Below, piece by piece: positions 20,007 to 22,823 of a stretch of DNA of 48,189 bases. Position 1 is the first letter of the stretch. Every line of letters begins with the position of its first letter. The notes beneath the pieces are model-generated. The model did not search any database. It was given only the letters and a program-made list of their open reading frames with translations, and was not told the DNA's origin. The translations under genes and the position numbers were made by a program. The stretch is from Spongiactinospora gelatinilytica (GTDB lineage: Bacteria; Actinomycetota; Actinomycetes; Streptosporangiales; Streptosporangiaceae), in assembly GCF_003236385.1 (NCBI RefSeq), contig NZ_POUA01000012.1, forward strand, positions 1 to 48,189, written 5' to 3'.

Positions 20007-20735
20007 TCAGGCGGGCGGGCCGAACAGCTCGGCGAGCAGGCCCGCGCCGTCCGCGGGGGCGCGCACCTCCAGGCGCAGGAGCGGGCCGTCCAGGTGGAGC
20101 CGGAAGTCGAAGAACGGGCAGCACAGCTGCTCGGCGACCGCGAGCCCGGCCACCGCCGCGGCCCGCTCGGCCGCGAGCGTCACCCGCAGCCCGCCGGGGA
20201 TCGCCTCCCGCCCGGCGCCGTCGAGGAGTGCCCGCCACCGCGTGAGGCGTTCGCCGGGCTCGTCGCCGGTCAGTGAGCAGGCCACCGGCGGCGGCGCGTC
20301 CCCCATCGGCAAGGCCGTGCCCATGGCGGGCGGGGTGAGGAAGGCGCACCGCGAACCGCATCGGGCCTCGCGGTCGGGCAACGCGTCCAGATGCGCGAGC
20401 GCGGTACGCAAGAAGCCGGTGAAGGCGGCCAGCTCCCCGGCGCGGGCCTCGGCGGCCGCCAGCCGCTCCCGGATGCGCGGCCGCAGGTCGGCCTTGACCT
20501 GGGCGCATGATCCGGCCTCCCACACCGTGAGCAGCTCGGCGATCTCCTCCAGCGGTAGTCCCAGGTGCTTGGCCTCGCCGATGAACGCCAGCCGGTCCAC
20601 CGCCTCCGGGCCGTAGGCGCGGTACCCGGCCGGAGTGCGCCCGGCGGGCAGCAGCCCGGCCTGCTCGTAGAAGCGCAGGGTCGTGGCCGGGACACCGGTA
20701 CGCGCCGCGAGCTGGGATATCCGCATGGATGTCAT
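20007..20735 (-). CDS. MerR-family transcriptional regulator
   Basis: A 242-residue regulator. The N-terminal winged HTH is canonical: [38 protein letters not shown], then a dimerisation helix around [20 protein letters not shown]. The C-terminal half is longer than in metal sensors. It contains several Cys ([24 protein letters not shown]), which may bind metal or sense thiols; the last 100 residues resemble an accessory domain following such MerR proteins in actinobacteria. ATG 20735 is chosen, with 20726 possible. A GACCTTC-N10-GAAGGTC dyad in the promoter is the expected autoregulatory site. The neighbouring YnfA gene is a likely target. Confidence 0.85.
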
Positions 20736-20748
20736 ACCACCGACGGTA

Positions 20749-20772
20749 GACCTTCCACCCGGCTCGAAGGTC
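20749..20772 (-). promoter_or_regulatory. MerR-type promoter/operator
   Basis: GACCTTC (20749-20755) and GAAGGTC (20766-20772) are perfect inverted arms separated by 10 bp. On the minus strand TTGACC (20774-20769) is a good -35, with a -10-like CTACCG after a long spacer. This is the architecture recognised by MerR activators, just upstream of the merR start. Confidence 0.75.
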
Positions 20773-20798
20773 AAGCCCTGAAGGTTCCCGGCCGGGGA

Positions 20799-20826
20799 TG
20801 TCGTATCGGCGGTCCCGCCGATCGTC
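20799..20826 (+). promoter_or_regulatory. Putative ECF42-type promoter with palindromic spacer
   Basis: TGTCGT (20799-20804) and CGTC (20823-20826) resemble the bipartite ECF42 promoter signature as I recall it (TGTCGA and CGA/TC). The 18 bases between them are a perfect dyad, ATCGGCGG-TC-CCGCCGAT. It lies about 40 bases upstream of the VOC-YCII-ECF operon. Confidence 0.5.
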
Positions 20827-20864
20827 TTCCGAGATAGGAGCACAACCGGGACAAGGAGCCGGAA

Positions 20865-21263
20865 ATGAACCCACGACTGAACACGATCGCCATGATCGTG
20901 TCCGATATGGATGCCTCGATGGCCTTCTATGCCCGGCTCGGGCTGGAGTTCGCGATCGACCCACGTTCGCCGGAGCACGCCGGATGCGACCTGCCGGGCG
21001 GGCTGCATGTGATGCTGGACACCGAGAAGTTTCGCACGCCCTTCCTGCCGGGCTGGAGTGCGCCGGGCGGCGGGCCGCGTACGCTGCTGTGCTTTGAGTT
21101 CGACACCCCGGCCGGGGTGGACGCCAAGTACGCCGAGCTGGTCGCCGCGGGCCATCGCGGGATCGCCGAGCCGTTCGACGCGTTCTGGGGGATGCGCTAC
21201 GCGACGGTGGCCGACCCCGACGGGAGCGGCGTGGACCTGTACGCCGCGCTCCCGGCACGCTGA
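20865..21263 (+). CDS. VOC/glyoxalase-fold protein
   Basis: A 132-residue vicinal-oxygen-chelate protein: two beta-alpha-beta-beta-beta modules, beginning NTIAMIVSDMDASMAFYARL and ending MRYATVADPDGSGVDLYAAL. Candidate metal ligands are sparse; the final EP/DPDG region is present, but the His usual in the first strand is not evident. It may therefore be a binding protein, as in antibiotic-sequestering members, rather than a glyoxalase. A strong ribosome site, AAGGAGCCGGAA, precedes ATG 20865. It is the first gene of an apparent operon with the YCII and sigma factor genes, 19 bases upstream of the former. Confidence 0.85.
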   Translation: MNPRLNTIAMIVSDMDASMAFYARLGLEFAIDPRSPEHAGCDLPGGLHVMLDTEKFRTPFLPGWSAPGGGPRTLLCFEFDTPAGVDAKYAELVAAGHRGIAEPFDAFWGMRYATVADPDGSGVDLYAALPAR

Positions 21264-21282: not shown

Positions 21283-21621
21283 GTGAAGTACGTGCTGATG
21301 TTCGTCGAGACCGAACGGTTCGCCCGGGAACTACAGGCGATGGGCGAGCTGGAGCGGCAGGCCGCCTACGCGGCGGTGGGCCGCTGGTTCGCCGACAACG
21401 CCGACAAGATCACCCGTCACACGCATCTGGCCCCCGTGCACACCGCCACCACCATGCGGCTGGACCAGCCGGAGCCGATGGTCACCGACGGGCCCTACCT
21501 GGAGGGCAAGGAGGTGGTCAGCGGGTTCGCCGAGGTCGAGGTGGCGGACCTGGACGAGGCGTTGCGGCTGGCCCGCACCTGGCCGGCCTGCCCGATCGTG
21601 GAGATCCGCCCCGCCTCATGA
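21283..21621 (+). CDS. YCII-related (DGPF-type) protein
   Basis: A 112-residue protein of the YciI/YCII superfamily, a ferredoxin-like dimer of unknown chemistry. The family core is KYVLMFVETERFARELQAM, AVGRWFADNAD, and PMVTDGPYLEGKEVVSGF, where DGPY takes the place of the name-giving DGPF, ending VEVADLDEALRLARTWPACP with IVEIRPAS. GTG 21283 follows GAGGAGAACG. The stop overlaps the sigma factor ATG (ATGA). Such proteins are the characteristic partners of ECF42 sigma factors; one idea is that they act in an oxidative reaction controlled by the sigma factor, but no function is proven. Confidence 0.9.
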   Translation: MKYVLMFVETERFARELQAMGELERQAAYAAVGRWFADNADKITRHTHLAPVHTATTMRLDQPEPMVTDGPYLEGKEVVSGFAEVEVADLDEALRLARTWPACPIVEIRPAS

Positions 21622-22823
21622 GCGGACCCGTGCCCCGGGAGGTGCTGGCCGGTGTGGTCCGCGAGCACGCGGGCCGGCTGGCGGCGTCCCTGGTGTCGCT
21701 GCTGGGCGACTTCTCCGCCGCCGAGGACCTGGTGCAGGACGCGGTGGAGACCGCGCTGCGGCGCTGGCCGGTGGAGGGCGTACCGGACCGGCCCGACGCG
21801 TGGCTGTTCACCGTGGCCCGCCGGCGCGGCCTGGACGTACTGCGCCGCGAGTCCAACCACCGGGCCAAACTCGCCCGGCTCACCTGGCCGGGCCCCGCAC
21901 CGCCGGATGACCGGCTACGGCTGATCTTCACCTGCTGCCACCCCGCGCTGTCGCGCGGCGCGCAGATCGCCCTCACCTTGCGGGTGGTGTGCGGGCTGTC
22001 GGTGGCGCAGATCGCCGCGGCGTTCATCGTGCCCGAGACCACGGTCGCCCAGCGCATCACGCGGGCCAAGCGGAAGATCGGCGAGGCCGGCATCCCCTAC
22101 CGCGTCCCGGCCGGCGAGGAGCTGCCCTCCCGGCTGGGCGAGGTGCTGGCGGTCATCTACCTGCTGTTCAACGAGGGGTACCTGTCCAACACGGCCGAAC
22201 GGGCCCAGGCGCGCGACCTGGTCGCGGACGCCGAGTGGCTGGCCGCGCTGCTGGCCGGCCTCATGCCCAAGGAGCCGGAGGCGGCCGGGCTGCTGGCACT
22301 GATCCGGCTGCACCGGGCCCGCGGCGCGGCCCGCTTCGACGCCCGGGGCCGGCTGGTGCTGCTGGCCGACCAGGACCGCGGCCTGTGGGACCGGCAGGCC
22401 ATCGCCGCGGCCACGGCGCTGCTCACCTGCGCCGCCCACACCCACCGCAGGCCGGGGCCCTACCAGCTCCAGGCGGCGATCGTGGCCTGCCATGCCGAGG
22501 CGGCGACCTTCGCCGACACCGACTGGGCGCAGATCCTGGTGCTGTACGACATGCTGCTGCACCTGGCGCCCTCACCGGTCACCCGGCTGCACCGGGCCGT
22601 CGCCGTACGCTACGCGCAAGGCCCGGCGGCGGCGCTGGCCGAGCTGAACGCCCTCGGTGACGCTTTGGAGCGCTACCCGCTGTTCCACGCCACCCGGGCC
22701 GAACTGCTGCGCGACCTGGAGCGCCACGAGGAGGCGCACCGGGCCGATCGGCGGGCGCTGGAGCTGACCGCCAACCCGGCCCAGCAGGCACTGCTGGAAG
22801 AACGCCTGCTCGGCTGGGATTGA
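21618..22823 (+). CDS. ECF42-like RNA polymerase sigma factor with C-terminal extension
   Basis: A 401-residue sigma factor, twice the usual ECF length. Region 2 is near residues 10-80 (LVSLLGDFSAAEDLVQDAVE, AWLFTVARRRGLDVLRRESN). Region 4 is near 100-165 (LTLRVVCGLSVAQIAAAFIV, PETTVAQRITRAKRKIGEAG). The remaining 230 residues form the TPR-like extension of this group: VIYLLFNEGYLSN, LLALIRLHRARGAARFD, YQLQAAIVACHAEAATFADT, LYDMLLHLAPSPVTRLHRAV. ECF42 factors have no anti-sigma factor and are thought to be controlled through this extension. Coupling to a YCII gene is diagnostic. It probably autoactivates from the promoter near 20799. Confidence 0.93.
   Translation: MSGPVPREVLAGVVREHAGRLAASLVSLLGDFSAAEDLVQDAVETALRRWPVEGVPDRPDAWLFTVARRRGLDVLRRESNHRAKLARLTWPGPAPPDDRLRLIFTCCHPALSRGAQIALTLRVVCGLSVAQIAAAFIVPETTVAQRITRAKRKIGEAGIPYRVPAGEELPSRLGEVLAVIYLLFNEGYLSNTAERAQARDLVADAEWLAALLAGLMPKEPEAAGLLALIRLHRARGAARFDARGRLVLLADQDRGLWDRQAIAAATALLTCAAHTHRRPGPYQLQAAIVACHAEAATFADTDWAQILVLYDMLLHLAPSPVTRLHRAVAVRYAQGPAAALAELNALGDALERYPLFHATRAELLRDLERHEEAHRADRRALELTANPAQQALLEERLLGWD

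Follow-up and report, generated by a model that had tools for sequence, protein, structure and literature searches.

The promoter of an ECF42 sigma factor operon in Spongiactinospora gelatinilytica and the probable chance origin of its spacer palindrome

Positions 20799 to 20838 of the window, the 48,189-nucleotide stretch of Spongiactinospora gelatinilytica DNA that we analyzed, very probably form the promoter of a VOC-YCII-ECF42 operon, most likely one that is read by the operon's own ECF42 sigma factor, and the dyad in its spacer was in all likelihood closed by chance. Three conserved blocks were found at fixed spacing: an extended -35 element, an extended -10 element, and a start-site block, GGTGAnG. 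The results of our sequence comparisons indicated that the spacer dyad is probably not a repressor site.

RESULTS

Layout of the operon and its promoter

The upstream promoter hexamer TGTCGT was confirmed in its exact bases and coordinates (20799 to 20804). It was followed on the forward strand by an 18-base spacer (20805 to 20822), which matched the reported dyad, ATCGGCGG-TC-CCGCCGAT, exactly, and by the -10 core CGTC (20823 to 20826). The spacer had been described as fully palindromic. Its two 8-base arms were indeed perfect inverted copies, but the central TC is not self-complementary, leaving 16 of the 18 bases paired. Based on column counts over 67 orthologous sites, both promoter elements extended beyond their cores on the forward strand. 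The extended -35 element, TGTCGTATCGG, has the core TGTCG and covers 20799 to 20809, and the extended -10 element, GCCGATCGTCT, covers 20817 to 20827 and includes the CGTC core. The start-site block (20832 to 20838 on the forward strand; alignment columns 33 to 39) has the clade consensus GGTGAnG and reads AGATAGG in the window.

The first gene of the operon encoded a VOC/glyoxalase-family protein (20865 to 21263; Pfam PF00903), and it was followed by a YCII-related gene (21283 to 21621; Pfam PF03795) and by a gene for an ECF42-type sigma factor with a C-terminal extension (21618 to 22823; Pfam Sigma70_r2, Sigma70_r4_2, and DUF6596), all on the forward strand. The operon had the features of an ECF42 locus: sigma regions 2 and 4 joined to a DUF6596 extension according to Pfam, a YCII gene adjoining the sigma gene, and a TGTCG -35 with a CGTC/CGAC -10 upstream of the operon. 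A divergent gene on the reverse strand (20007 to 20735; Pfam MerR_1) encoded a MerR-family regulator, and a MerR-type dyad, GACCTTC-N10-GAAGGTC, was located at 20749 to 20772 in what is presumed to be the MerR gene's own promoter.

Promoter conservation at orthologous VOC loci

A search of 341 genomes of the family with the VOC protein gave matches in 69 genomes, and 71 loci had at least 57% identity. The sequence before each VOC gene was searched with a strict rule, TGTCGn-N-CGTC, in which spacers of 16 to 20 bases were permitted. A strict site was present at 67 of the 71 loci, 57 to 162 bases before the VOC start, and the spacer was 18 bases in all 67 matches. When two loci with TGTCT in place of TGTCG (L089 and L094) were included, the site was found at 69 of 71 loci, always with a spacer of 18; the promoter was absent before the VOC gene at the other two loci (L076 and L098). 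This conservation, together with the invariant spacer, supported the part of the original prediction that placed a putative ECF42 promoter before the VOC-YCII-ECF operon. Another 18 VOC matches, all under 55% identity, lacked the site within a distance of 350 bases and were excluded from the counts.

By inspection, the VOC gene was followed by the YCII gene and then by the sigma gene at 67 of 71 loci, the exceptions being L005, L076, L081, and L098. Nonomuraea, Planobispora, Herbidospora, Sphaerisporangium, and Actinomadura were among the carriers of the VOC-first operon with its site. Of 394 genomes drawn from the class, nine had a match at the same cut-off, and all nine belonged to the window's family. 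A Kribbella locus with a 55% VOC match (L113) had the site. At L081, the VOC gene was located after the sigma gene, yet it had its own ECF42-type promoter; at L005, the VOC gene also had its own ECF42-type promoter, and no YCII or sigma gene was found downstream within the stretch examined. The VOC gene may itself be a target, independently of the operon.

The 67 sites were then compared column by column, with TGTCG and CGTC fixed by the search rule. At the left end of the spacer, the preferred bases were A (56 sites), T (57), C (53), G (58), and G (44), preceded by T (48). At the right end, they were G (41), C (66), C (62), G (56), A (49, with T at 18), and T (67), and a T followed CGTC at 60 sites. 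The middle of the spacer was variable. The third block, GGTGAnG, began four variable bases past the T that follows CGTC; the window's copy of this block is divergent and is perhaps shifted by one base. In Sinorhizobium meliloti, the start of SMc01149, which is marked as found by two methods in the available part of the source, lies 9 bases after CGTC (PMC6180224). Because this spacing was transferred to the window, a start is expected near 20835, inside the GGTGAnG block.

Symmetry of the spacer

A dimer site was taken to have like base preferences in both halves, and a hairpin was taken to have pairs that change together. A look for the dyad in orthologous ECF42 operons had been proposed as a check; it was perfect at only 2 of the 69 loci (L003 and L041). 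The original prediction had also treated loss of the palindrome in close relatives as evidence against itself, and this loss was what we found: by hand count, seven of the eight pairs matched in the same-genus relative L004 and four of the eight in L008, also of the same genus. Only the outer ATCGG and CCGAT were conserved across loci, and the inner bases drifted.

Pairing between the arms was close to that of shuffled columns. Among the 64 distinct spacers, 311 pairs matched versus 303.5 (standard deviation of 6.4) after column shuffling, a number reached by 14% of shuffles, and 76 inner pairs matched versus 70.3, a number reached by 18% of shuffles. When outer pairs departed from the consensus, 82 departures were one-sided and 6 were two-sided, and 3 of these 6 were complementary. 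In a second set of 98 distinct family matches, 93 of 294 inner pairs matched versus 101.7 expected. These 98 sites had at most two mismatches to the conserved ends and were taken at any position; they overlap the orthologue set, and some are probably chance matches.

The two half-sites were not equally constrained. On a tree built from the three proteins of the operon for the 69 sites, the outer left arm changed 49 times versus 19 times for the outer right arm, and the base spectra of the arms differed. For example, spacer position 14 was C in 68 of 69 sites, and its mirror, position 5, was G in 46 of 69; the two positions changed once and 16 times, respectively, and positions 1 and 18 changed seven times and not at all. 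Joint changes of both partners on a single branch occurred twice in the outer arms, with a complementary outcome each time; the inner arms had eight such changes, two of them complementary. Position 17 was T in 18 of 69 sites, and its mirror counterpart, A at position 2, was present in 2 of 69 (Fisher 1.4e-4, uncorrected for relatedness); the T17/A2 contrast was smaller on the tree, with five gains versus two. In addition, four loci (g34) had lost the left half and kept the right half. The claim that a repressor binds in the spacer, blocking the sigma factor's own promoter, was therefore not borne out, because the half-sites are asymmetric and change mostly independently, the dyad is lost in relatives, and pairing is not in excess; we rejected a repressor operator on these grounds. 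Most other ECF42 promoters were asymmetric as well. A limited literature search yielded no paper on a spacer operator in ECF42 promoters in the titles and abstracts among the matches listed.

Frequency of the dyad

Five perfect 8+2+8 dyads were present in the 48-kb window, some of them within longer dyads, and about three were expected from base composition, which indicated that dyads of this size are common in the window. What sets the dyad at 20805 to 20822 apart is its position, as it takes up a promoter spacer, and it is the comparison with relatives that decides its meaning. Among the 64 distinct orthologous spacers, two perfect dyads were found versus 0.6 expected from column shuffles, 12% of which reached two; among the 98 family matches, two were found versus 1.4 expected, and 42% of column shuffles reached this number. 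Judged by these counts, and given the conserved ends, the window dyad is no more than chance would be expected to produce.

Near matches to the dyad, ATCGGCGGNNCCGCCGAT, with at most three mismatches were more frequent than expected. The window contained seven, one of which was an exact copy, versus 1.5 in dinucleotide shuffles, and none of 100 shuffles reached seven. The consensus ends, ATCGG and CCGAT, are exact inverted copies over 5 bases, which has a chance of about 0.2% (0.298 to the fifth power). We held this mirror relation to be a coincidence, the only explanation that we offer for it.

Other ECF42 promoters

The window's operon was compared with characterized members of the ECF42 group, namely, Sven_0747, Sven_4377, and Sven_7131 of Streptomyces venezuelae, ECF-10 of Pseudomonas putida, and RpoE10 of S. 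meliloti. The common features were a YCII neighbor, a long extension at the C terminus, an operon in which no anti-sigma gene was seen, a TGTCG...CGTC promoter, and glyoxalase-like targets. The differences were a spacer of 18 in the window versus 17 in the S. meliloti promoters (our own count), the conserved ATCGG and CCGAT ends, and the VOC gene in the operon. For the S. venezuelae ECF42 factors, Liu reportedly described a promoter motif of TGTCGA and CGA/TC in 2018.

We also examined ECF42 loci outside the orthologue set. From a longer list, the best 80 ECF42 loci were taken, and 74 were examined, as the other six had no VOC or YCII match. A core site was found before the first gene in 34 of the 74 loci and in none of the other 40 within 220 bases of the placed gene start. 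Some of these 40 had a TGTCGATT-type site further upstream (for example, L170, L171, and L186), so the placement of gene starts is possibly at fault for the missing sites. The comparison covered 26 YCII-first promoters, the eight VOC-first loci among the 34 and a second, 19-spacer match in L118 being excluded; the L182 site was kept, although, at a distance of only 6 bases from the placed start, it may have arisen by chance.

Eight of the YCII-first promoters had an 18-base spacer; they came from Chloroflexi and from actinobacteria, some of which are probably members of the window's family. Their outer pairs averaged 2.1 of 5, with two of the eight still at 4 of 5, and the right end was mostly kept (C in 8, C in 7, G in 8, A in 5, and T in 8). 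The remaining 18 had a 17-base spacer and came from Chloroflexi and other phyla, including actinobacteria. Their ends were roughly TGTCGATT and GTTCGTC, and their outer pairs averaged 1.1 of 5, with about 1.5 expected by chance. According to the part of PMC6180224 available to us, the RpoE10 target SMb20475 of S. meliloti has the promoter TGTCGGATCGG...GGTGCGTC, which carries the left end but no CCGAT.

Promoters of the ECF41 group also have a TGTC -35 and a CGTC -10 (TGTCACA-n16-CGTC), and ECF41 sigma factors likewise have a C-terminal extension and a dedicated neighboring target, as described in a portion of PMC3426412. In comparison with the window, the ECF41 motif given there has a different -35 tail and a shorter spacer.

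DISCUSSION

In the reading that we favor, region 4 of the ECF42 sigma factor would read the extended -35 element, region 2 would read the extended -10 element, and transcription would start near 20835 from a promoter that is probably autoregulatory. The mirror relation between the first and last five bases of the spacer would be fortuitous, and in the window the three inner pairs, which are unconstrained, would match by chance and so complete the dyad. Control would be exerted on the sigma factor, by way of its C-terminal extension and a partner that may be the YCII protein, as has been proposed in print for ECF42 factors, instead of by a repressor bound in the spacer. Autoregulation is not general for the group, because in the data covered by the accessible part of PMC6180224 the YCII-sigma operon of RpoE10 showed no increase when this sigma factor was overexpressed. 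Several results count against the favored reading: the enrichment of near matches to the dyad, the fact that both joint changes in the outer arms were complementary, the smaller T17/A2 contrast on the tree, the low chance of mirrored ends, the two VOC loci without a promoter, and the 40 of 74 ECF42 loci without a core site near the first gene.

Some of the same results would fit a repressor. Bound to the conserved ATCGG-N8-CCGAT as its operator, a dimeric protein could block the promoter, in which case the inner bases would be free to vary and the perfect dyad would be a strong version; the exact inversion of the consensus ends, the constant spacer of 18, the near matches in the window, and the two complementary joint changes are all in line with this idea. 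We nevertheless consider it very unlikely. The half-sites differ in their tolerance of change, the g34 loci retain only the right half, and the symmetry is mostly lost in the 26 YCII-first promoters. Furthermore, ATCGG-N8-CCGAT occurred at 12 sites in the 8-Mb genome, which was no excess over the 13.5 to 16.7 expected from dinucleotide (13.5) or half-site frequencies of the window; the single-base and trinucleotide expectations were 7 and 31, respectively, and a backward control found 0 sites versus 1.7 expected from dinucleotides. A dyad regulon in the genome was rejected on this count. In a rough frame-composition test, 5 of the other 11 sites were wholly inside a strongly coding-like frame, and 6 were without a clear coding call (L187, L188, L190, L191, L193, and L197). 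The conserved spacer ends could instead be contacted, alongside the sigma factor, by a further protein part, such as the C-terminal extension, YCII, or VOC. The window's clade does conserve more bases than the TGTCGA and CGA/TC cores that are reportedly typical of ECF42. Moreover, the extension is essential for ECF42 activity, as stated in the available text of PMC8999054. DNA binding by the extension, YCII, or VOC is hypothetical, however, and we regard such a contact as unlikely. In the excerpt of PMC5333181, sigma-E promoters also have a conserved spacer element that acts with an extended -10. The sigma-E precedent, which concerns another sigma group and is likened to the window by description only, is not decisive, because the same excerpt treats the spacer element as the site of an external factor (PMC5333181).

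The divergent MerR protein was another candidate for the spacer dyad, since its gene is adjacent, and it could in principle control the ECF42 operon in the manner typical of MerR proteins at promoters with long spacers. MerR operators typically fill promoter spacers, and the window's dyad likewise lies between a -35 and a -10, but its sequence is different. We judged this reading highly improbable because the MerR gene carries a separate dyad at 20749 to 20772, which is predicted to be the bound site and lies 27 bases upstream of the ECF42 promoter. Both GACCTTC-N10-GAAGGTC arms were kept in the same-genus genome G001, in which the center was different, and this dyad appears to be the region's better candidate for a spacer-dyad promoter; the presumed MerR promoter spans 20743 to 20774. 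In a linked-regulator search that used the window's own neighbors as queries and covered at most 1.5 kb upstream at most loci, a divergent MerR gene was beside the operon at 2 of 71 loci, those of the window's genome and G001, and no divergent MerR match was found at the other 69 within the stretch examined. L041, which has the other perfect ECF42 dyad, had no MerR match in the locus stretch examined, and L075 had a 42% MerR match on the same strand as VOC. It is even harder to believe that the dyad works by forming a hairpin or cruciform, in RNA or DNA, and we consider this exceedingly improbable. The 8-bp arms are G+C-rich, but the dyad is upstream of the expected start and would thus be untranscribed from the ECF42 promoter. 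The RNA fold of 20790 to 20864 was no better than that of shuffled sequences (z of 0.12), and the arms were not paired with each other in this fold, which disfavored a hairpin. Complementary pairs were not in excess in the orthologous spacers or in the 98 family matches.

If the preferred reading holds, conserved ends on both sides of a promoter spacer plus chance are enough to produce a perfect dyad there, and dyads of this kind should not be over-read when a genome is G+C-rich. From the compared loci we also obtain a sharply defined, extended ECF42 promoter for a single actinobacterial family, with which targets of these sigma factors can be sought; the three-block form of this promoter is a modest side finding. 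We tentatively suggest that the clade could read an unusually long three-block promoter with rigid 18-base spacing, in which the sigma factor or its C-terminal extension makes base-specific contacts within the spacer, and that the sigma factor could be self-controlling with one or a few sites per genome.

The full motif with at most three mismatches was found at one site in the window's genome, and a backward control also gave one site; a loose TGTCGW-N15-21-CGTC pattern gave 537 matches versus 436 in the control and was too loose for use. Matches with at most two mismatches were present in 91 of 338 family genomes, with two backward-control matches among the matches listed, and some family genomes had two motif matches. 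The action of the sigma factor thus seems to be confined to its own operon and, at most, a few further genes. G035, G142, and G146 each had, besides the operon's site, an extra match to the promoter motif some 2 kb past VOC and on the opposite strand. L065 (near 3828) and L072 had an opposite-strand match close to a reverse-strand YCII gene, which is likely a second target in these loci.

The window's genome had further ECF42-type matches (L099 to L103). No clear promoter site was found at L099, L101, and L103. At L100 and L102, the sites TGTCGA-N17-CGAC and TGTCGA-N17-CGTC, respectively, preceded genes that were judged YCII-like by eye, at a distance of about 80 bases, and were without ATCGG/CCGAT. 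The distinct spacer ends at these two sites suggest that there are separate promoter specificities in one cell.
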